Shown here one piece after another: positions 39,391 to 49,530 of a stretch of DNA of 64,000 bases. The stretch is from Robiginitalea biformata HTCC2501 (GTDB taxonomy: Bacteria > Bacteroidota > Bacteroidia > Flavobacteriales > Flavobacteriaceae). Location: assembly GCF_000024125.1 (NCBI RefSeq), contig NC_013222.1, positions 2,458,501 through 2,522,500 on the forward strand, in the 5' to 3' direction. Each line of letters starts with the position of its first letter. Position 1 is the first letter of the stretch. Under the pieces are notes generated by a model that saw nothing but the letters and a program-made list of their open reading frames with translations, was not told the origin of the DNA and searched no databases. A program made the position numbers and the translations under genes.

Positions 39391-41388
39391 ATGGAAAAGA
39401 CCCCGCTTGCTTTCGACTACGAAACCTTCCAAGTGCCCCGCGAGATGCAGCTCAGACTCTACCGGGAAATGTTGCGCCCCCGGCTGATTGAGGAAAAGAT
39501 GTTGATCCTGCTGCGTCAGGGGAAGATTTCGAAATGGTTTAGCGGCATCGGGCAGGAGGCCATTGCAGTGGGTGTGGCGGCCAGCCTGAAGCCCGAGGAA
39601 TTCATCCTTCCCATGCACCGGAACCTGGGGGCGTTTACCTTCAGGGACGTACCCCTGAACCGGTTGTTTGCCCAATGGCAGGGCAAGGCTAACGGATTTA
39701 CCAAGGGCAGGGACCGGAGTTTCCATTTTGGGAGTATGGAGCATCGGATTGTCGGCATGATCTCCCACCTGGGCCCGCAACTGGGGGTGGCCGACGGGAT
39801 TGCCCTGTCGGACCTTTTACAGGGGCGCAGTCGGGTGACGGCTGTGTTTACGGGGGAAGGAGCCACCAGCGAGGGGGATTTTCACGAAGCCCTGAATATT
39901 GCGTCGGTATGGGGGTTGCCGGTGCTGTTCTGCATAGAAAACAACGGGTACGGGCTGTCCACCCCCGTTTCCGAGCAGTATAATTGCGAAAACCTGGCCG
40001 ACCGGGGCGCCGGCTACGGGATGGAATCGCATATTCTGGACGGCAACAACATCCAGGAGGTTTACGCGAGAATCAGCGAACTATGCGCCAGTATGCGGAA
40101 GGAACCCCGTCCGGTCCTGGTGGAGTTTAAAACTTTCCGGATGCGCGGACACGAGGAAGCCAGCGGCACGCGCTACGTCCCGGAGGAGATGATGGAGCAT
40201 TGGGGGAAACGGGACCCGCTGGAAAACTACGCGGCCTTCCTTCGGGAGTCCGGGGTCCTCAGCGAAGTTCGCGAGGTGCGGATTAAAAAGGAAATTCAGG
40301 AGGAGATTGATAACGCTTTGGACGAGGCATTTGCAGAACCCGCTGTTGAATTCAATGAAAGTATTGAGTTAAATGATGTGTTTAAACCATTTGTATTTAA
40401 ACAAGTTGAAAAAGGATTAAATGCAAATAATATCCGCTTGGTAGATGCCGTCTCTCAGGGACTCAGGCAGAGTATGCAGCGGCACGACAACCTGGTGCTC
40501 CTTGGGCAGGACATTGCGGAATACGGTGGAGTCTTTAAAGTGACGGAAGGGTTTGCGGAGGAGTTTGGGACAGACCGGGTCCGGAACACACCCATTTGCG
40601 AATCGGGTATCGTCTCCACGGCCATGGGGCTCTCCCTGGGGGGTATGAAAGCGGTGGTCGAGATGCAGTTCTCGGATTTTGTCACGTCGGGGTTCAACCC
40701 GATTGTCAATTACCTGGCCAAGGTGCATTACCGTTGGGGGGAGCCGGCAGATGTGGTGATCCGGATGCCCTGCGGTGCCGGAGTGGGGGCGGGTCCGTTT
40801 CACTCCCAGACCAACGAGGCCTGGTTTACCAAAGTCCCCGGCCTTAAAGTTGCTTATCCGGCATTCCCGGCCGACGCCAAGGGATTGCTCGCCACGGCCA
40901 TCGAGGACCCGAATCCGGTGTTGTTCTTTGAGCACAAGGGTCTCTACCGGTCGCTATACGGGGATGTGCCCCAGGATTACTTCACCATACCTTTCGGGCA
41001 GGCAGCGCGTTTACGGGAAGGGGAGGGCCTGAGCGTAATCACCTACGGCGCCGGGGTGCACTGGGCTATCGAAGCCCTGGATGCGCTGGGGGTCACCGAT
41101 GCCGACCTAATTGACCTGCGGACGCTCTGCCCGCTGGACACCGGGACGGTATTTGAATCCGTCCGCCGGACCGGGAAGGTCTTGCTCCTGCAGGAGGACA
41201 CGCTCTTTGGCGGTGTATGTTCGGACCTTGCCGCCATGATAGGCGAACATTGCTTTGAATACCTGGACGCGCCGGTTCGCCGGGTGGCTTCCCTGGAAAC
41301 CCCCGTGCCTTTTGCCCGTAACCTGGAAGCGGGTTTCCTGCCAAAAAAGCGGTTACGCCGGGCCCTGGAAGAACTGATTGCTTACTGA
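39391..41388 (+). CDS. Second fused alpha-beta 2-oxoacid dehydrogenase E1
   Basis: 665 residues. The alpha half (about 1-310) has the TPP motif GEGATSEGDFHEALNIASVWGLPVLFCIENN. The beta half (about 345-665) has LLGQDIAEYGGVFKVTEGF and a transketolase C domain. Shorter and more canonical than the E1 at 1637-4048, it most resembles branched-chain 2-oxoacid or acetoin-type E1. The linker (about residues 318-350) is encoded by a strikingly AT-rich island, 40345-40435, in which I count 21 G/C of 91 bases. E2 and E3 are not adjacent. Confidence 0.9.
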   Translation: MEKTPLAFDYETFQVPREMQLRLYREMLRPRLIEEKMLILLRQGKISKWFSGIGQEAIAVGVAASLKPEEFILPMHRNLGAFTFRDVPLNRLFAQWQGKANGFTKGRDRSFHFGSMEHRIVGMISHLGPQLGVADGIALSDLLQGRSRVTAVFTGEGATSEGDFHEALNIASVWGLPVLFCIENNGYGLSTPVSEQYNCENLADRGAGYGMESHILDGNNIQEVYARISELCASMRKEPRPVLVEFKTFRMRGHEEASGTRYVPEEMMEHWGKRDPLENYAAFLRESGVLSEVREVRIKKEIQEEIDNALDEAFAEPAVEFNESIELNDVFKPFVFKQVEKGLNANNIRLVDAVSQGLRQSMQRHDNLVLLGQDIAEYGGVFKVTEGFAEEFGTDRVRNTPICESGIVSTAMGLSLGGMKAVVEMQFSDFVTSGFNPIVNYLAKVHYRWGEPADVVIRMPCGAGVGAGPFHSQTNEAWFTKVPGLKVAYPAFPADAKGLLATAIEDPNPVLFFEHKGLYRSLYGDVPQDYFTIPFGQAARLREGEGLSVITYGAGVHWAIEALDALGVTDADLIDLRTLCPLDTGTVFESVRRTGKVLLLQEDTLFGGVCSDLAAMIGEHCFEYLDAPVRRVASLETPVPFARNLEAGFLPKKRLRRALEELIAY

Positions 41389-41523
41389 GGCGGGGTAACC
41401 GGCGGCACGCTTCCCCCTTTACGATTTTAGCGGGGACACAATTCTGCGGATCGGGCAAAGTTTCTACCGGGATTTCGCGCATCTTTCGATATAGGCAACG
41501 TCCGGAAACGGGCTTAGACCGTA

Positions 41524-41531
41524 TATATTCG
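41524..41531 (+). promoter_or_regulatory. -7 promoter box of the lipocalin/OmpA operon (TTCG variant)
   Basis: TATATTCG, one mismatch from TAnnTTTG, 16 nt before the ATG. The rest of 41389-41523 shows nothing else I can support. Confidence 0.45.
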
Positions 41532-41547
41532 AACAAAACAATCATTT

Positions 41548-42030
41548 ATGAAACGCATACTCCCAATGATACTCCTGGTGGCAATGGGGATCCAATCCTG
41601 CTCCGTTTCCAAAGCCGTACGGGAAAAACGCAACATGATAAGCGGTACGTGGACCCTCACGGATATCGTTTACGCCAATAACGAAGGGACATTTAAGGCA
41701 ACCCTGTTTGACGATGCCGATGCCATATGCTATGAAGGCAGCGAATGGTATTTCCGCGACAACAACAGCACGGGGCGCTATACCATTGAGTCCGGCAGTC
41801 TCTGCAATGGGGGCGACCGGTTTTTCCGTTGGTCTGTCATTGAGCAACCTGAAAGCTACAACCCGACCTTCCAGTTCAAATTCATCGACGAAAACCGAAA
41901 GGACATCTCGGGCGGCTACGGGTACCGGCTGACAATCGAAAACCTGACGGCCACCGAAATGCAAATGCGCTCCAATGTCCGGGTAGACGGCCAGCCTGTG
42001 AGCGTTGTATATCAATTTATCAAAAAATAA
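41548..42030 (+). CDS. Lipocalin-like lipoprotein
   Basis: 160 residues. A type II signal peptide ends GIQSC. The mature part has the lipocalin-type opening ISGTWTLTDIVY and further paired strands, with two cysteines that could form a disulfide. Small lipocalin-like lipoproteins are common in Bacteroidota; the ligand is unknown. It lies 3 bases upstream of the OmpA-family gene, so they form an operon. Confidence 0.7.
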   Translation: MKRILPMILLVAMGIQSCSVSKAVREKRNMISGTWTLTDIVYANNEGTFKATLFDDADAICYEGSEWYFRDNNSTGRYTIESGSLCNGGDRFFRWSVIEQPESYNPTFQFKFIDENRKDISGGYGYRLTIENLTATEMQMRSNVRVDGQPVSVVYQFIKK

Positions 42031-42033
42031 TCC

Positions 42034-42729
42034 ATGAAAACCTATCGTATGCGCATGGCGAGCTGGATGCTGATCCTCGGGCTCGTATTCGGTTGCAATA
42101 CCGTTAAAAATGCAAACAACAAACAGAAAGGCGCTGTTATCGGCGCCAGTAGCGGCGCGGTCATCGGCGGGGTCGTCGGCAACAATGTGGGCAAAGGCAA
42201 TACCGTACTCGGCGCCATCATTGGCGGGGTAGTCGGCGGAGTTGCCGGCGGATACATCGGGGACCGGATGGACCGGCAGGCCGAAAAAATAGAAGAAGAA
42301 CTTCCAGGTGCGGAGGTAAAACGCGTAGGGGAGGGGATCAATGTCACCTTCACCCAGGACCAGGGGGTCCACTTCGCCACGAACCAGTCGGCTATTGAAG
42401 GCGCCTCGGTAACCACCCTGAACAAACTGGCGGGGATTTTTAAGGAATACCCGAAATCCGTGATCCTGGTGGAAGGACATACCGACAGCGCCGGGCCGGA
42501 GGATTACAATATGAGCCTCAGCCAGCGCCGGGCAGAGTCTGTGGTCAACTACCTGGTTGCCCAGGGGATAGACAAGGACCGCTTTACGGTTAGGTGGTAC
42601 GGGGAAACCCAGCCCCGTGCCGACAACTCCACCGCGGAGGGCAAGGCCCAAAACCGCCGTGTGGAAATGGGGATCATCGCCAGTGAGGCCCTCAAGGAGG
42701 AGGCCCGGAAGGAAACGGGCGGAAACTGA
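42034..42729 (+). CDS. OmpA-family lipoprotein with glycine-zipper segment
   Basis: 231 residues. The signal peptide ends VFGC. A glycine-zipper region (about 33-82, GAVIGASSGAVIGGVVG and IGGVVGGVAGGYIG) is followed by an OmpA C-terminal peptidoglycan-binding domain with VEGHTDSAGPEDYNMSLSQR and AQNRRVEM. It should anchor the outer membrane to the cell wall. The operon ends in the terminator at 42767-42792. Confidence 0.9.
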   Translation: MKTYRMRMASWMLILGLVFGCNTVKNANNKQKGAVIGASSGAVIGGVVGNNVGKGNTVLGAIIGGVVGGVAGGYIGDRMDRQAEKIEEELPGAEVKRVGEGINVTFTQDQGVHFATNQSAIEGASVTTLNKLAGIFKEYPKSVILVEGHTDSAGPEDYNMSLSQRRAESVVNYLVAQGIDKDRFTVRWYGETQPRADNSTAEGKAQNRRVEMGIIASEALKEEARKETGGN

Positions 42730-42766
42730 TCGCCAGCTTCCCCGATTTGAATCCAAATAAAATTAG

Positions 42767-42792
42767 TCCCGGCTCCGGCCGGGATTTTTTTT
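42767..42792 (+). terminator. Strong rho-independent terminator
   Basis: CCCGGC (42768-42773), loop TCCG, GCCGGG (42778-42783), extended by a T-A pair and followed by A and eight T (42785-42792). It isolates the polyketide cluster from upstream transcription. Confidence 0.9.
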
Positions 42793-42813
42793 GATTTCGC
42801 GTAACTTAAGAAA

Positions 42814-43929
42814 ATGGAATTCACGGAAATCGCCATTGCGGGAGGGGGTCTGGCCGGCCTGACTGCGGCCATCGAGTTGAGGTGCATGGGGCGGGACGTT
42901 ACGGTTTTTGAAAAGCATCCCTACCCGCGCCACAAAGTTTGCGGGGAGTACCTGTCGGCCGAAGTACTTCCGTATCTGGAATCCGTCGGGGTGGACATCT
43001 CGGACGCCCCCCGGATTACCCGCCTGCGGCTCCAGTCCGAAAGAGGCAGGCCGGTATTTGCCGATCTGCCGCTTGGGGGGCTGGGCATCAGCAGGTATGC
43101 GTTGGACCACCGGCTCTGCGAGGCGGCTTCCGGGCTGGGTGTCCGCCTGCGGTTTGAAACCATTCGGGAAATCAACCCCGGGGAAACAGGCAGCTCGCTG
43201 CGTACGGATGCAGGAAATTATCGGGCCGGTCGCATCCTGGCCACCTGGGGCAAACGGAGCAACCTGGACCGGCAGCAAGACCGGCCGTTTTTTGCAAGAA
43301 AATCCCAATGGATGGCGATTAAAAACCATTACCAGGCCGATTATCCATCCGACCAGGTGGGGCTCTATACTTTTCGCGGGGGGTATGGCGGTTTGTCGGT
43401 TACGGAAACCGGAGCCCTCAATTTTTGTTTCCTGATCCGCCAGAAACGATTCGCGTATTATAATTCACCGGAAACCTGCGCAAAAGAAATTATTGCAGCG
43501 CACCCCGGGTTGCGGGAGGCGTTAGGGGAGGCGAAACCATTGTTTTCACGTCCATTGGCCATTTCACAGATCTCCTTTGACGCCAAGAAGCGCCACAGGA
43601 ACCAGGTATTATTTGCCGGGGATGCTGCGCAGCTGATCCACCCCTTAACCGGCAATGGTATGGCGATGGCTATCCTGGGGGGCAGGATGCTGGCCCGGCA
43701 ACTCGGACAACAGGCGGGTGTCCCAGGCCCCGGAAATGGGGTGGCGAATGAAGATTATTCAGGGAAATGGGATACCGCTTTCAGGGGTCGGTTGTTATCC
43801 GGCCGTGCATTGCAATGGCTCCTGACGCGTTCCCGAATGACGGATGTCCTTGTGCGGATGGCCGGTTCTTTCCCGGGGTTGCTGCCGCTTATTGTTTCGA
43901 AAACCCATGGACCCCCCGTTCATCCATGA
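42814..43929 (+). CDS. FAD-dependent oxidoreductase/hydroxylase of the type III PKS cluster
   Basis: 371 residues. The dinucleotide-binding motif GGGLAG is at 10-15, KVCGEYLS near 41-48 (a cysteine motif of the geranylgeranyl reductase-like group), and the FAD-ribityl motif GDAAQLIHPLTGNGM near 270. In gene order and family it parallels SrsC, the flavin hydroxylase that turns alkylresorcinols into hydroquinones in Streptomyces. This role is inferred from context; a reductase function is the alternative. It is the first gene of the cluster, 21 bases after a strong terminator; a weak TAACTTAA at 42802-42809 is the only promoter-like box. Confidence 0.75.
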   Translation: MEFTEIAIAGGGLAGLTAAIELRCMGRDVTVFEKHPYPRHKVCGEYLSAEVLPYLESVGVDISDAPRITRLRLQSERGRPVFADLPLGGLGISRYALDHRLCEAASGLGVRLRFETIREINPGETGSSLRTDAGNYRAGRILATWGKRSNLDRQQDRPFFARKSQWMAIKNHYQADYPSDQVGLYTFRGGYGGLSVTETGALNFCFLIRQKRFAYYNSPETCAKEIIAAHPGLREALGEAKPLFSRPLAISQISFDAKKRHRNQVLFAGDAAQLIHPLTGNGMAMAILGGRMLARQLGQQAGVPGPGNGVANEDYSGKWDTAFRGRLLSGRALQWLLTRSRMTDVLVRMAGSFPGLLPLIVSKTHGPPVHP

Positions 43930-44642
43930 GCCGCTTTAAAATGCGGAGCCAGGCCGCTGAACAAATGGACGACCTGGAACTCGACGAGGGCCGACTCGCC
44001 CTGGCACTCGCGGATATTCGACGGGTTAACCGGTTGCTTGGTGGGCATGCCACGAGCCTGGCAGGCCTCAGGCCTTTTCTCAGCCTGGAAAAGGCAGGCC
44101 CGGTGCACGTGCTGGATGTGGGCTGCGGGGACGGGGAATTCCTTCGCTATCTGGCTGCCTATTGTCGGAGGGAGGCGATCCCCTGCCGCCTGACGGGGTG
44201 GGACTTTAACCCAAAGACTCTGGACCAGGCACGGCAGGCTTCCGCCGGATATCCGGAAATCGCCTTCCGGCAGCGCGACCTGCGCAACCAGCCGGAATTC
44301 CCGGAAGGAACCCTGGTCATCTGCAACCTGTTCCTGCATCATTTTACGGATACCCAAATACGGGAGCTGTTGGCGCATTGGCTCTCTCAGGGCCCGAGGG
44401 CCATCGTCGTAAATGATTTGCACAGGAATTCGGCAGCATATTATTTGTTCTGGTTTTTTGGGCTTATTTTTATGAGGTCGCCGATTGCCCGCAGCGACGG
44501 GCGCATATCCATACTGCGGGGCTTCAGGCGAAAGGATTTCAGTCGTTTGGCGGCAGGATTGCCCCTGGGGCGCACCCGCCTGGTATGGCGGTGGGCCTTT
44601 CGGTACCTGTGGACGCTGGAACCTAAAAAGAAATTGCTATGA
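43926..44642 (+). CDS. Class I SAM-dependent methyltransferase of the type III PKS cluster
   Basis: 238 residues. Motif I is VLDVGCGDGEF (62-72), the post-I acidic segment TGWDFNPKTLDQAR, and LVICNLFLHHFTD is the motif IV region. A hydrophobic stretch YYLFWFFGLIFM near 174-185 may associate with membrane. It probably methylates the phenolic product. Note that Streptomyces SrsB is an ICMT-type membrane methyltransferase, so this would be a different enzyme in an equivalent position. Both ends overlap neighbours as ATGA, so translation is coupled. Confidence 0.82.
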   Translation: MSRFKMRSQAAEQMDDLELDEGRLALALADIRRVNRLLGGHATSLAGLRPFLSLEKAGPVHVLDVGCGDGEFLRYLAAYCRREAIPCRLTGWDFNPKTLDQARQASAGYPEIAFRQRDLRNQPEFPEGTLVICNLFLHHFTDTQIRELLAHWLSQGPRAIVVNDLHRNSAAYYLFWFFGLIFMRSPIARSDGRISILRGFRRKDFSRLAAGLPLGRTRLVWRWAFRYLWTLEPKKKLL

Positions 44643-45697
44643 ACGACGTATCGATCGTTACGGCCCAACGGGCGTTGCCCGCTTTCAGCCGAACTACCGA
44701 CGAGATATTGCCCTACCTGGACCAGTGGCTCCGGGACGAACCGGACCGGCTGCGAAGGAAGGCAAGGAAGATCTTTGAAGGTGCCGGGGTAGATCGCAGA
44801 TACGGGATTATGGATGTCGCCGAGGTATTTACCCCCTCGAGTTTTGAGGCGAAGAACCGACTGTATGCGGCAGGGGCCAGGGAGCTCGGGAACCGTGCCC
44901 TTCAGGCAGCGCTGGAGGCGGCAGGTTGGGAGCCGGATTCTCTGGATATTCTGATTACAGTTAGTTGTACGGGCATCATGATCCCATCGCTGGATGCCTA
45001 CCTGATCGATGATCAGGGGCTTCGGGGCGATATCATTCGTCTTCCGGTTACCGAAATGGGCTGCGTTGGAGGTGTCTCCGGCCTGATTTACGCCCGGCGT
45101 TTCCTGCAAGCCGGCTCGGCGAGCCGGGCCGCAGTCCTGGCTGTGGAATCGCCTGCGGCGACCTTCCAGCACAACGACCGATCCATGGCGAACATCATCA
45201 GTGCCGCCATTTTCGGCGATGGGGCGAGCTGCGTGCTGCTCAGCAACGAAGCGGGGCAGGCCGGCCCGCGGATACTCGCCGAAGGAATGTATCATTTCCC
45301 GGAATCGACCGGATTGATGGGTTTTGACCTGACCAACCGGGGACTCCGGATGATCCTGGATCCAGATGTGCCCCACGCCATCGGCCGGAATTTTCAGCAG
45401 TTTCTCGGGCCGTTTCTGGCCCGGTCCGGCCTTGAAATTACCGACCTCCGGCATCTGATATTCCACCCGGGAGGGAGAAAGATCGTGGAAACCGTGTCGG
45501 AACTATTCCGGGACCAGTTGGCCAATATGGACAAAACCCGGGAGGTCCTGCGCCATTACGGCAACATGAGCAGCGCCACCGTCCTCTATGTTTTGCAGGC
45601 TTATCTGGAGGATCCCAGCCTGCCACCGGGCCCCGCCCTCATCCTGAGTTTCGGCCCGGGGTTTACCGCTCAACGGATGCTGATCGAGTTCTCGTAG
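44639..45697 (+). CDS. Type III polyketide synthase (chalcone synthase-like)
   Basis: 352 residues. The Cys-His-Asn triad is intact: C142 in TEMGCVGGVSG, H276 in LIFHPGGR and N309 in HYGNMSSATV. Bacterial members extend a fatty acyl starter with malonyl-CoA and cyclise it to alkylresorcinols, alkylpyrones or phloroglucinols. The surrounding enoyl reductase, dehydratase, ketosynthase and carrier protein could supply a special starter. The product cannot be read from sequence. The start overlaps the methyltransferase stop (ATGA). Confidence 0.93.
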   Translation: MNDVSIVTAQRALPAFSRTTDEILPYLDQWLRDEPDRLRRKARKIFEGAGVDRRYGIMDVAEVFTPSSFEAKNRLYAAGARELGNRALQAALEAAGWEPDSLDILITVSCTGIMIPSLDAYLIDDQGLRGDIIRLPVTEMGCVGGVSGLIYARRFLQAGSASRAAVLAVESPAATFQHNDRSMANIISAAIFGDGASCVLLSNEAGQAGPRILAEGMYHFPESTGLMGFDLTNRGLRMILDPDVPHAIGRNFQQFLGPFLARSGLEITDLRHLIFHPGGRKIVETVSELFRDQLANMDKTREVLRHYGNMSSATVLYVLQAYLEDPSLPPGPALILSFGPGFTAQRMLIEFS

Positions 45698-45749
45698 CTT
45701 GATTAAATATCTGAGTTAAAAACTTTGTATACAATTACATATAGATATT

Positions 45750-46535
45750 ATGTTAATGAATACTTCAAGAGACTGCGCCCTGGTTATCGGAGGCAGTAAA
45801 GGGCTTGGCCTGGCAACGGTGGAGAAGATAGCAGCTACCGGTTATCCGGTTGCGGTTGTTCATCGCGACCCGCGCAAAGACCTCGAAGCCGTCCGGGAAC
45901 ATTTCGAGGCATTGCAAAACAACGGAGCCCATTTGTTGCACCAGAATACGGATGCCATCGGGGGGGAGGGGAGAGACCAGTTTCTCAATGCCCTCGAGGA
46001 TTGGCTCACACCCGGTCGGAAAGTTGGCTTGGTCGTATTCAGCATTGCCAAAGGCAACCTGAAGCGTATGGTGGAGTCAGACGGCCTGACGGGGCGGGAC
46101 CTGGCCATTACCTCGGAAGCCATGGCCTTTGCGTTTTACGACTGGGCCCGGGAATTGAAAGGCCGCGGGATGCTGGGTGAGGGAGCCTGCCTGGTTGCAT
46201 TTACCAGCGAGGGAAGTCAACGGGTTTTACCGGCCTATGGGGCCGTGGGAACGGCCAAAGCTGCCCTGGAGGCCCTGGTCCGCCAAATGGCCGTGGAATG
46301 GGCCCCGGAGGGAATCCGCGTCAATTGCCTGCAGGCAGGGGTTACCCAAACGGATTCGCTGATGCGCATCCCCGGGGTAAAGAAATTGCTGGATCGCGCA
46401 AGCCGCCGGAACCCGAGTGGCCGCCTGACCCGGCCTGCCGATGTGGCCAACGCCGTTTACCTCCTCAGTCAGCCCGAAGCGGCCTGGATAACCGGCAATG
46501 TCCTCTGCGTGGACGGAGGCGAGAGGCTCTGCTAA
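45750..46535 (+). CDS. FabL-like enoyl-ACP reductase (SDR family)
   Basis: 261 residues. The nucleotide-binding motif is GGSKGLG (14-20). The catalytic pair is spaced Y163-x6-K170 (YGAVGTAK), the spacing of enoyl reductases FabI/FabL, not the Y-x3-K of ketoreductases. The C-terminal half strongly resembles Bacillus FabL as I recall it. This points to reduction of enoyl-ACP in a dedicated chain-building pathway; a ketoreductase role is less likely. It follows the PKS after a 52-base AT-rich gap that might hold a promoter, but I find no clear TAnnTTTG. ATG codons at 45750 and 45756 are both possible starts. Confidence 0.82.
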   Translation: MLMNTSRDCALVIGGSKGLGLATVEKIAATGYPVAVVHRDPRKDLEAVREHFEALQNNGAHLLHQNTDAIGGEGRDQFLNALEDWLTPGRKVGLVVFSIAKGNLKRMVESDGLTGRDLAITSEAMAFAFYDWARELKGRGMLGEGACLVAFTSEGSQRVLPAYGAVGTAKAALEALVRQMAVEWAPEGIRVNCLQAGVTQTDSLMRIPGVKKLLDRASRRNPSGRLTRPADVANAVYLLSQPEAAWITGNVLCVDGGERLC

Positions 46536-46573
46536 ACAGCGCAGCAAAGTATTCTTTAGTGAAGGACGATGAG

Positions 46574-47026
46574 ATGAAGGACGAGTTACAGGAAATATTG
46601 AATCGATTGCCCTACAGGGAACCGTTCCGTTTTGTGGACGAATTGGATTACGTCTCTGATACCGGGGCGTCCGGCCGCTATACATTCCGGCCCGAAAGCT
46701 GGTTCTACCCCGGCCACTTTCCCGGCAGCCCTGTTACCCCCGGCGTACTGCTCACCGAATGCTGTGCCCAGATCGGGTTGGTTTGCCTGGGGATTCACCT
46801 TTCCGGGTTGCCGGGTAATTCGGCGGCGGCACCGGGCTTTGCACTGTCAGATTCCAGGATGGAATTCCTGCTGCCGGTTTCCCCGGGCGAAACTGTCCGG
46901 GTGGTGAGCGAAAAACTTTATTTCCGATTCGGAAAGCTGCGTTGCGATGTCCGGCTGTTTTTGACGGACGGGCGTTTGGCGTGTAAAGGCCGGTTATCGG
47001 GAATGCTAATAAATTCTGCTGCATGA
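46574..47026 (+). CDS. 3-hydroxyacyl-ACP dehydratase (FabZ/FabA-like hotdog protein)
   Basis: 150 residues. Hotdog-fold catalytic residues are H48 in GHFPGSPVTPG and E62 in LLTECCAQIG, the FabZ arrangement. It dehydrates 3-hydroxyacyl-ACP to the enoyl form that the preceding gene product would reduce. The ORF is open from 46298, but the ATG at 46574 fits the family length and lies after the reductase stop. It overlaps the ketosynthase start by 4 bases. Confidence 0.85.
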   Translation: MKDELQEILNRLPYREPFRFVDELDYVSDTGASGRYTFRPESWFYPGHFPGSPVTPGVLLTECCAQIGLVCLGIHLSGLPGNSAAAPGFALSDSRMEFLLPVSPGETVRVVSEKLYFRFGKLRCDVRLFLTDGRLACKGRLSGMLINSAA

Positions 47027-48297
47027 ACCGACGCGTCGTGATTACCGGGCTGGGTATATGCGCCCCCAATGCTATAGGCACAGCGGGGTTCCGGGAGGCT
47101 ATGCGGCTCGGAACGAGCGGGATTCGGCATATTGCCGAACTCGACCGGTTGGGATTTCGATGTACGATGGGAGCCGCCCCGGAAATTCCCGCGGAGGTCC
47201 TCGAAACTACCTTTACGAGCCTGGAGCGGCGGGGTCTGACGGCATCCGGCCTGATTTACGGAGCGCTGGCGGGTATGGAGGCCTGGGAGGACGCCCGCCT
47301 GTATCCGGAGGGATCGGACGAGCCGGATTGGGATTCCGGGGTGCTTTTCGGGACCGGCCTGCTGGGGGCAGACACGTTCCGGGCGGCAGTTAACCGTATC
47401 GATGCCCACGAAGTGCGCCGCCTGGGCAGTACTACCGTCCCTCAGATTATGGCGAGCGGGGCGAGTGCCTGGCTGTCGGGGAAACTCGGGTGCGGGAACT
47501 GGTCCGGGGCAAATTCCTCGGCCTGCAGCACAGGTGCCGAGGCCTTGCTACTTGCCTGTTGGCATATTCGCAATGGTCGTGCCGAGCGCATGCTTGCGGG
47601 GAGTTGCTCCGATTCGGGACCGTACATCTGGGGTGGGTTTGACGCGATGCGTATTTTATCATCGGCGGACCCCGCGGTACCGGAAGCTGCCTGCCGGCCG
47701 CTGTCGGCCACCGCGTCGGGATTTGTTCCCGGTTCGGGAGCCGGTGCCCTGGTTCTGGAATCCCTGGAAAGTGCAAATGCCCGGGGAGCCCGCATATATG
47801 CGGAAATCCTGGGGGGAGCCGTCAACAGCGGGGGCCAGCGGGGAGGAGGTACGATGACGGCAGCCAATGCCGGAGGCGTGCTGCGGTGTATCCGGGGAGC
47901 CCTGGCCGATAGTCGGGTAGACGCCGGTTCCATCGACCTGATCAACGGGCACCTGACGGCCACGGCCCGGGACCCGGAAGAAATCGACGGGTGGTCTGCT
48001 GCCCTGGGCCGGTCCGGCAGCGATTTTCCGTTTATCAACTCCTGTAAGGACCTGCTGGGCCACGGCCTGGCGGCATCGGGAAGCATGGAAGCCGTGGCGT
48101 CCGTCCTGCAGCTGGCAGACCAGGAGGTGTTCGGCAACACGAATGCCCAGGACCTGCACCCGGAAATCGCCGCGCGCATAGACCGTACCCGGGTCCCGGT
48201 GGCGAGCCGGCCTGCAGCCCTGAATTATCTGGCAAAAGCCAGCTTTGGCTTCGGCGATGTCAATGCATGTATTATTTTTAGACGGTATGAACCCTGA
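47023..48297 (+). CDS. Beta-ketoacyl-ACP synthase (KAS I/II-like)
   Basis: 424 residues. Nucleophile C168 is in SSACSTGAEAL, first histidine H310 in NGHLTATARDPEE, and Lys342/His347 in CKDLLGHGLAASG, so the Cys-His-His set is complete. The first His loop reads NGHLTATARD where FabF has N-A-H-G-T-S-T-x-x-x-D, a variation typical of secondary-metabolite ketosynthases. It has no partner chain-length factor, so it should act as a homodimer with the adjacent carrier protein. The start is coupled to the dehydratase (ATGA). Confidence 0.9.
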   Translation: MNRRVVITGLGICAPNAIGTAGFREAMRLGTSGIRHIAELDRLGFRCTMGAAPEIPAEVLETTFTSLERRGLTASGLIYGALAGMEAWEDARLYPEGSDEPDWDSGVLFGTGLLGADTFRAAVNRIDAHEVRRLGSTTVPQIMASGASAWLSGKLGCGNWSGANSSACSTGAEALLLACWHIRNGRAERMLAGSCSDSGPYIWGGFDAMRILSSADPAVPEAACRPLSATASGFVPGSGAGALVLESLESANARGARIYAEILGGAVNSGGQRGGGTMTAANAGGVLRCIRGALADSRVDAGSIDLINGHLTATARDPEEIDGWSAALGRSGSDFPFINSCKDLLGHGLAASGSMEAVASVLQLADQEVFGNTNAQDLHPEIAARIDRTRVPVASRPAALNYLAKASFGFGDVNACIIFRRYEP

Positions 48298-48315
48298 ATC
48301 CAAGAACGTCCGCAC

Positions 48316-48570
48316 ATGAAAACACACCCGCACTATGAAACCCTGCAGCAAATTATCCGGCCATATTTGCCCGAAGATGTGGATCCGGACACGGTGGGTC
48401 CGGACAGCCGCCTGGTGGCAGATCTGAATATCAATTCGGCCCACCTGGTGGATATCGTCCTGGATGTTGAGGATCGGTTTGATATCCGGCTGGAAGATGC
48501 GGATATGCAGGAAATGGCCACCGTGGCCGATGCGCTGGGGGTTATTGATTCCAAGTTAAACAACCCCTGA
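48316..48570 (+). CDS. Acyl carrier protein of the type III PKS cluster
   Basis: 84 residues, acidic four-helix ACP pattern. The phosphopantetheine attachment serine is most likely S41 in DLNINSAHLVDIV; the residue before it is Asn instead of the usual Asp of DSL. Helix III follows in VEDRFDIRLEDADM. It would carry the chain built by the neighbouring ketosynthase, dehydratase and reductase. It lies 18 bases after the ketosynthase and is the last gene of the cluster. A hairpin overlaps its stop codon. Confidence 0.88.
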   Translation: MKTHPHYETLQQIIRPYLPEDVDPDTVGPDSRLVADLNINSAHLVDIVLDVEDRFDIRLEDADMQEMATVADALGVIDSKLNNP

Positions 48571-48595
48571 AGGCCGATGAACAGTCCCTTCAGGG
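48565..48595. terminator. Hairpin at the end of the polyketide cluster
   Basis: CCCTGAAGG (48565-48573) and CCTTCAGGG (48587-48595) form a perfect 9 bp stem with a 13-base loop that includes the end of the ACP gene. It lies between convergent genes. There is no T run, so it may be a weak shared terminator. Confidence 0.5.
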
Positions 48596-48602
48596 AGCGC
48601 GG

Positions 48603-48998
48603 CTAGGATTCGTCCAGGCCGGCGGAATTCGCCTCGAAGAATTGTACGAGTTCCGACGGGGTACTGAGCTGCCCGATGCGATCCCCGCTTACCACAATCG
48701 GGTACTGCAACAATACGGGGTTCTCGTTGAGCATCTTCAGCCAGTCATCCGGATGCAGGTTCCCGCTTCCGGTATCCGGGGCATCCGGATGATCCAAAGC
48801 CAGCAACTCGTCAAACGGTTTGTCCAGCCGATCCTGCAAACTTACCCAAAGCGTATTGCCGAGTTTTGTTTTGGAAATATCCAGGTCCTGAATCGCCTTG
48901 TTGGAGCCCTGGAGATATCCCAAAGCCTGTTTTCCCAATCGGGTTTCCGAATTGTAGATCAGTGTAAGCTGCTTGTCGTCAGTTGCCAAAACGCTCAT
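48603..48998 (-). CDS. ArsC/Spx-fold protein without cysteines
   Basis: 131 residues. The pattern of LTLIYNSETRLGKQALGYLQ, later DDWLKMLNENPVLLQYPIVVSGD and a Gly-rich C-terminal loop matches the ArsC/Spx/YffB thioredoxin-like fold (LxxNPxLLxxPIV). The Cx2C or single catalytic cysteine at the N-terminal loop is missing; the protein has no cysteine at all. A redox or arsenate reductase role is therefore unlikely; a binding or regulatory role like Spx is possible. It lies 29 bases downstream of the ribosome-hibernation gene, same strand. Confidence 0.72.
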   Translation of the reverse strand: MSVLATDDKQLTLIYNSETRLGKQALGYLQGSNKAIQDLDISKTKLGNTLWVSLQDRLDKPFDELLALDHPDAPDTGSGNLHPDDWLKMLNENPVLLQYPIVVSGDRIGQLSTPSELVQFFEANSAGLDES

Positions 48999-49027
48999 TG
49001 CATTTTAATAGATTAATCATCCGGCAG

Positions 49028-49330
49028 TTACCGGTTTTTCATTTTTTCCTTCCGCTTTCGGAGTTGCCGTTCCAAATCATCGGCTGCCTCGGCAATAGAA
49101 GCCTCGTAGCTTCCCGTGCTTGCCTCCGCAAACAACCGCGGCCCGGGAATGCTCAAACGGATATTGCAGATTTTACCCGTATCGGGTTCTGAGGTGTTTT
49201 CCTTTTTGAAAAAGATATCGGCCCGTACGATAAAATCGTATTTATCGACCATTTTTTCGACCTTTTTACCAGCCATTTGCTCGAGTCTCAGGCTCGCCTT
49301 GACCCCATCGTATTCAAAATTGATATCCAT
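49028..49330 (-). CDS. HPF/RaiA-family ribosome hibernation factor (short form)
   Basis: 100 residues. The beta-alpha-beta-beta-beta-alpha pattern with VEKMVDKYDFIVRADIFFKKE and a basic C-terminal helix (DLERQLRKRKEKMK) matches ribosomal-subunit interface proteins. It would stabilise inactive ribosomes in slow growth. It is probably cotranscribed with the ArsC-fold gene. Upstream, TATCTTAC at 49351-49344 is a weak promoter-like box. Confidence 0.82.
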   Translation of the reverse strand: MDINFEYDGVKASLRLEQMAGKKVEKMVDKYDFIVRADIFFKKENTSEPDTGKICNIRLSIPGPRLFAEASTGSYEASIAEAADDLERQLRKRKEKMKNR

Positions 49331-49530
49331 ATGCAGTATTTATGAGTAAGATACATTCCCGGGGGGCCTTTTCCAAATATTCCGCCTGGTAAAATGTACC
49401 GGATTGCAAGTTGCAGAAGCCCTCTTTGCGTTAACGAAAAGATAAGTAAGGGAAATCCTTATGTTAGGAAGTCCGGACAAGGCCGAAAATTCGTAACTTT
49501 TATACATGGCAATCCTAACACTTCCAGTAT

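Follow-up and report, generated by a model that had tools for sequence, protein, structure and literature searches.

A conserved seven-gene cluster of Flavobacteriaceae that probably couples a type III polyketide synthase to its own acyl-chain enzymes

The stretch of DNA analysed here (the window, 64 kb) corresponds to positions 2458501-2522500 of the single-contig genome (3,530,383 bases) of Robiginitalea biformata HTCC2501. At 42814-48570 of the window, seven neighbouring open reading frames (ORFs) lie on the + strand: a flavin adenine dinucleotide (FAD) enzyme, a methyltransferase (MT), a type III polyketide synthase (PKS), a short-chain dehydrogenase/reductase (SDR), a dehydratase (DH), a ketosynthase (KS) and an acyl carrier protein (ACP). 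An initial annotation, made from the sequence alone, had named seven consecutive same-strand genes of these classes, and the ORF list and the Pfam and NCBIfam classes bear it out. The genes, followed by two flanking hairpins, are:

42814..43929, + strand: FAD enzyme of the GG-reductase / flavin monooxygenase / halogenase superfamily, putative tailoring enzyme (Pfam, NCBIfam, comparison of the AlphaFold2 (AF2) fold)
43926..44642, + strand: class I S-adenosylmethionine (SAM) MT, putative tailoring enzyme (PF13649, 53.7 bits)
44639..45697, + strand: type III PKS with C142-H276-N309 and Phe229 at the ring-closure position (PF02797/PF00195)
45750..46535, + strand: FabL/FabI-like SDR, probable enoyl-ACP reductase, Y163-x6-K170 (best NCBIfam model FabL, below cut-off; best PDB match 3oic)
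46574..47026, + strand: FabZ-like 3-hydroxyacyl-ACP DH, H50/E64 with numbering from the codon at 46568 (Pfam, NCBIfam, alignment)
47023..48297, + strand: FabF-like KS, C168-H310-H347 (Pfam, NCBIfam, alignment)
48316..48570, + strand: ACP, Ser41 in Asn-Ser-Ala instead of Asp-Ser-Leu (PF00550, alignment)
42765..42786, + strand: upstream intrinsic terminator, which probably belongs to the OmpA-like gene 42034-42729 (hairpin with T-run; RNA fold z -4.14)
about 48565..48595, + strand: downstream hairpin, not significant (RNA fold z -1.01)

The MT frame is listed from 43767, inside the FAD gene, and its most likely start is 43926; that of the DH is 46574. Three of the six junctions read ATGA (FAD/MT, MT/PKS and DH/KS), the number first annotated.

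None of the seven proteins exceeds an NCBIfam cut-off among the matches listed. The PKS scores above the Pfam cut-offs (PF02797, 71.3 bits; PF00195, 55.0 bits), which places it in the type III PKS superfamily. Its closest named relatives are from Robiginitalea (78% to R. sp. SC105), and it is the most conserved of the seven proteins, with 151 of 352 columns conserved at ≥95%. The PKS triad described as intact and the reductase motif named in the initial annotation proved invariant in orthologues: C142, H276 and N309 in 123/123 aligned PKS rows (window included), and the Tyr and Lys of Y-x6-K in 90/90 SDR rows. Position +4 from this Tyr is occupied by S, G or A and never by K; the Y-x6-K of FabL stands in place of the Y-x3-K of FabG. 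The closest NCBIfam model of the SDR is FabL (NF005975, 146 bits against a cut-off of 328) and its best PDB match, 3oic, is an enoyl-ACP reductase. Judged by these scores it is a relative of FabL, not the equivalog.

The remaining acyl-chain proteins show the same combination of distant family scores and conserved catalytic residues. The DH is closest to FabZ (52 bits, cut-off 113), with its His and Glu invariant in 116/116 aligned rows, and the KS is closest to FabF (242 bits, cut-off 494), with the Cys in 118/118 rows and both His in 117/118, the other row having a gap. The ACP lies under every NCBIfam cut-off listed; its Ser is present in 117/117 aligned rows and Asn-Ser-Ala in 115 of them, where the housekeeping ACP has Asp-Ser-Leu. 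Housekeeping FabF, ACP, FabG and LpxC-FabZ are encoded elsewhere in the same genome, each scoring above an NCBIfam cut-off, and the cluster KS, DH and ACP are only 33%, 33% and 30% identical to their housekeeping counterparts.

Of the two putative tailoring enzymes, the first matches FAD_binding_3 and is closest in NCBIfam to the GG-reductase superfamily (89 bits, cut-off 159). In fold, its AF2 model (predicted local distance difference test score, pLDDT, 89.4) comes closest to flavin halogenases, then to squalene epoxidase, a GG-reductase-like protein and hydroxylases. The hydroxylase role suggested in the initial annotation is one candidate among several. WxWxI(P) is a motif of flavin-dependent halogenases. 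We rejected that assignment despite the closest fold: the enzyme lacks this motif, and none of the Lys positions between residues 46 and 98 is shared by more than 65 of 122 sequences. The MT matched only class I SAM families in the Pfam scan (Methyltransf_25/11/12/31/23), and a sequence search of the PDB at E 0.001 returned no chain for it.

The initial annotation had set comparison of gene order among relatives as one of its tests. A search of 299 Flavobacteriaceae genomes (strong match, E <1e-80) found the PKS in 103, the window's own included and with the gene in two pieces in G150; the next genome scored 1.5e-43. Neighbourhoods were laid out for 39 of the other 102 PKS genomes and for 80 named loci, 119 together. 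All seven genes stand in the same order in 32 of the 39, one of which has its KS in two frames; 4 lack the SDR only, 1 lacks the DH, and 2 carry FAD-MT-PKS-SDR only. The 80 named loci are the best 80 of 578 confirmed by scan and hence biased to close relatives; 50 have the exact order, 1 has the same order plus a second SDR, 22 lack the SDR with the rest ordered, and the remaining 7 are truncated at contig ends or miss one or two genes. With three loci of other families the set comprised 122 loci (118 distinct PKS cores), or 116 once six with <4.5 kb downstream were set aside. The cluster passed this test: 81 of the 116 keep all seven genes and 28 lack the reductase only. Three more lack the DH only, 2 have FAD-MT-PKS-SDR only, 1 lacks SDR and ACP, and 1, at an upstream contig end, also lacks the SDR. 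The cluster SDR is absent from 30/116 loci, and on a quick PKS tree its presence takes 12 changes or more to explain; it is thus dispensable or replaceable. Maribacter flavus (L153) has the SDR gene, for example, and Flavobacterium frigoris (L182) does not. Extra genes within some clusters mostly differ each time and appear unrelated by eye (no family scan was made); no common eighth gene was seen, again by eye, across the laid-out clusters.

Co-occurrence also ties the two halves of the cluster together. The cluster KS (E <1e-70, same 299 genomes) is present in 101 genomes and in 82 of the 236 genera that were sampled within the family. All 101 also have the PKS; no genome has the KS without it, and two have the PKS without a full KS, although the Fisher value overstates this association, related genomes not being independent. 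One of the two PKS-only genomes (G293) has a contig that ends within the KS gene. In the one-contig genome G190, FAD-MT-PKS-SDR lies at ~2.94 Mb and DH-KS-ACP at ~2.58 Mb; the same halves are split in G144 and G276, on different contigs. That both halves persist in a genome even when separated is good evidence for one pathway. Separately, the cluster KS genes of G205, G249, G279 and G287 contain internal stop codons, possibly through recent decay or sequencing errors.

Conserved order, PKS-KS co-occurrence, retention of DH-KS-ACP trios that lie apart and separate housekeeping fatty acid synthase (FAS) enzymes together make a private acyl supply for the type III PKS well supported. The claim of the initial annotation that the FAS-type genes belong with the PKS in one dedicated pathway therefore stands, through the conserved order, the 101/103 co-occurrence and the split clusters that were retained.

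Similar tailoring genes occur outside the family in a simpler setting. PF02797 is found in 170 of 345 Bacteroidota genomes, and 39 such loci outside Flavobacteriaceae, hand-picked from the listed matches and not random, were inspected over 10-17 kb each. Three have a six- or seven-gene form, 22 combine PKS, MT and FAD enzyme, and 14 have a PKS without the complete three-gene set. No KS, DH or ACP match was found in the 10-17 kb around the 22 three-gene loci; L125 has an SDR match ~4.5 kb away. Mean identity of the window FAD enzyme is 40% to 16 seven-gene homologues and 35% to 12 from three-gene loci of the same class, and that of the MT is 37% and 31%, whereas the PKS drops from 59% to 28%. 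The FAD enzymes of 10 three-gene loci from more distant groups are far less similar (mean 78 bits, range 27 to 135), and for this reason we restrict the claim of shared tailoring enzymes to same-class loci.

In the PKS tree, which included PKS18 and was built without ArsB, SrsA and BpsA, all 18 seven-gene rows fall in a single clade (100/100). This clade is separate from the 22 three-gene rows and lies within a group (100/98) that also holds THNS, Pks11, CylI and nine solitary PKSs. A single clade of seven-gene and same-class three-gene PKSs against six reference chains was rejected (p 0.001), with the cautions that four rows (Steely1, PKS18, CylI and another) have long branches and that the test group was chosen with the tree already known. 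Quick FAD and MT trees (SH-like approximate likelihood ratio test, SH-aLRT, only, and without outside references) place the seven-gene rows in one group each (95 and 80), which in the FAD tree sits inside a 98-supported set containing three-gene rows. In another Flavobacteriaceae genome, a solitary type III PKS (L103:8098-9231) groups with THNS (100/100).

Taken together, it is probable, though well short of certain, that the seven genes form an operon dedicated to the biosynthesis of a tailored lipid, phenolic or pyrone-like; the phenolic nature of the product we infer. In the proposed route, KS and DH, with or without the FabL-like reductase, would make or extend an acyl chain carried by the private ACP. 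Ketoreduction would be borrowed from FabG, as the initial annotation had supposed and as the housekeeping FabG elsewhere in the genome would allow, and malonyl loading from FabD. The PKS would take the acyl-ACP as starter, add malonyl units (three for a resorcinol) and cyclise, and the ring would then be oxidised by the FAD enzyme and methylated by the MT. In lineages without the cluster SDR, a housekeeping enoyl reductase might finish the chain, or it might be left unsaturated. Precedents for acyl-ACP transfer to a type III PKS exist in ArsB/C and germicidin synthase (PMC6274091; this and the other papers cited are represented here by excerpts). The grouping of the PKS with Pks11, CylI and THNS also counts for this route, CylI accepting ACP-bound chains (PMC8086630).

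Several observations weigh against this proposal. The seven genes include no ketoreductase, loading enzyme or thioesterase. The second PKS-only genome, G138 (locus L249, given as 99% complete), has FAD-MT-PKS-SDR with just a housekeeping-type FabF and no KS trio. The best NCBIfam model of the PKS is DpgA (NF042429), whose product is small, and THNS falls within the same supported tree group. Finally, the position of the PKS18 tunnel Cys205 is Pro in 18/18 seven-gene rows and Cys in 22/22 three-gene rows, and this replacement makes a tunnel of exactly the PKS18 type doubtful. The PKS18 Ala209 position, Phe in the seven-gene PKSs, is uninformative because large residues also fill it in Pks11 (Tyr) and CylI (Trp); PKS18 tunnel residues do not reveal the starter length. 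As a separate observation, the cluster of Salinimicrobium nanhaiense has a second, FabG-like SDR between SDR and DH (L192:8955-9752; TIGR01830, 161 bits, cut-off 298), possibly a natural addition of the missing ketoreductase.

DpgA, THNS and the tunnel Pro are also what favours the reverse order of events, in which the PKS acts first, making a small aromatic or pyrone from malonyl-CoA in the manner of DpgA or THNS, and KS, DH and reductase extend an aryl-primed chain on the ACP. A KS that resembles FabF and not the priming FabH would fit as well. We nevertheless consider this order unlikely. No CoA-to-ACP transfer enzyme or ligase is among the seven, the DpgA score (149 bits) is far below its cut-off of 425, and Pks11 and CylI of the same group use acyl chains (PMC6274091, PMC8086630). 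Moreover, the FAD enzyme and MT have relatives in same-class three-gene clusters, in whose vicinity no KS, DH or ACP was found.

The type of ring closure bears on a second alternative, that the PKS lactonises and the product is a methylated alkylpyrone, not a phenol. A Trp that decides between aldol and lactone closure in ArsB and other enzymes has been linked with resorcinol formation, also for SrsA (PMC6274091, PMC5916927). The aligned residue is Phe in 123/123 seven-gene PKSs, compared with Trp in 22/22 three-gene PKSs and in 14 of 15 other sampled PKSs; CylI has Leu. However, Phe is still aromatic, CylI makes an alkylresorcinol with Leu at that position (PMC8086630), and partners such as a FAD oxidase and an MT fit a phenol better, so that an alkylpyrone is also rather improbable. 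Phe229 is a class marker and a handle for testing; it does not decide the product.

That the FAS-type genes are mere neighbours of an ordinary three-gene PKS-MT-FAD route fed by primary metabolism is very unlikely and nearly refuted. Three-gene modules are common in other Bacteroidota (22 of the 39 inspected loci) and G138 does without the trio; yet the KS accompanies the PKS in 101 of 103 genomes and never occurs without it, even where the trio lies at another site, and the seven-gene PKS is of another lineage than the three-gene PKS. A variant of flexirubin or aryl-polyene biosynthesis, suggested by KS, DH, ACP and SDR genes in Bacteroidota, is the least credible of all, as the best-conserved protein of the cluster is a type III PKS and, in agreement with the initial annotation, DarA/DarB and ammonia-lyase are absent among the seven genes (the search for them covered these genes only), as is a FabG-type ketoreductase.

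The preferred reading, a tailored lipid made on a private acyl supply, finds partial parallels in known systems. The cyanobacterial hidABC hierridin operon and its planctomycete relatives give alkylresorcinols (PMC10896814, PMC8086630) and likewise have adjacent type III PKS, MT and oxidoreductase genes. Their order, however, is MT-oxidoreductase-PKS (hidA-hidB-hidC, or else hidC-hidA-hidB; PMC8086630), not FAD-MT-PKS, and the excerpts describe no FAS genes there; this comparison is by description and not by HidABC sequence. The initial annotation had filed the cluster with srsABC of Streptomyces griseus, which shares a type III PKS, an MT and a flavin oxygenase. This filing is not supported: SrsB is of the isoprenylcysteine carboxyl methyltransferase type (PMC6669644), and the MT here shows class I SAM families only. 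The two also differ in that three core genes suffice in S. griseus (PMC6669644). In the ars operon of Azotobacter (ArsA-D) a dedicated FAS also passes acyl-ACP to type III PKSs (PMC6274091), but as a multidomain type I enzyme in place of the discrete, single-domain type II KS, DH and ACP found here. In the cyl cluster, CylI, of the same broad PKS group, receives an ACP-bound chain, made from a fatty acid on the ACP CylB via a halogenase and type I PKSs (PMC8086630), none of which occur here. The three-gene Bacteroidota modules (e.g. L104, L113 and L118) share a homologous FAD enzyme and MT in same-class loci; they differ in having no KS, DH or ACP found nearby and a PKS of another lineage with Trp instead of Phe229.

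Because the tailoring enzymes are related in same-class loci while the PKS is of another lineage, the simplest reading of the sequences is that gain of the private chain builder may have gone along with an exchange of the synthase, the tailoring pair being retained. Alternatively, one PKS lineage may have diverged fast, or similar tailoring enzymes may have been recruited separately. A fuller scenario can be offered tentatively, at somewhat less than even chances: an ancestral PKS-MT-FAD phenolic-lipid module had its synthase replaced by a Phe-type PKS dependent on a private Asn-Ser-Ala ACP and its own type II chain builder, and presence or loss of the SDR sets a saturated or unsaturated chain.

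As to flanking elements, the strong upstream terminator of the initial annotation was confirmed; the hairpin said to follow the cluster exists but has no T-run, and 28 of 200 shuffles fold as well. Only 27 bases (42787-42813) lie between the stem of the upstream terminator and the start codon of the first gene, hardly room for a promoter. The A+T-rich gap between PKS and SDR (45698-45749) is the longest of the operon, and a separate transcription start there for the downstream half is possible. The Bacteroidota-type promoter consensus matched three times within the window, never close to the cluster, and Rfam gave no match in 42000-49500. The same-strand genes upstream (39391-42729: a fused E1-type 2-oxoacid dehydrogenase, a 160-residue protein and the OmpA-like protein) adjoin the cluster in 66 of 119 loci. 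We rejected them as pathway members and take them as inherited context, because E1 persists in 23 of 25 genomes chosen for lacking the cluster, 5 of the 23 keeping it next to the OmpA gene, and because genome G032 (locus L276) has an empty site, with the OmpA gene followed by TerC and no cluster between.

The open-access literature search returned no description of the seven-gene cluster, most subscription papers, preprints and MIBiG being outside its scope. Two surveys of Flavobacteriaceae (PMC10734526, PMC7440613) count type III PKS clusters by antiSMASH and assign to them roughly one in ten of the natural-product clusters predicted for the family (10.74% and 9%, respectively), and the seven-gene architecture is not described in their excerpts. 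The cluster is a variant of known combinations of type III PKS and tailoring enzymes, with a private type II chain builder, and it is kept together in many marine and soil Bacteroidota. With its PKS in 103 of the 299 sampled genomes it is a common orphan cluster type, which its dissection makes testable in culturable hosts. It also offers a natural experiment in how dependence on a dedicated carrier protein arises in a type III PKS.

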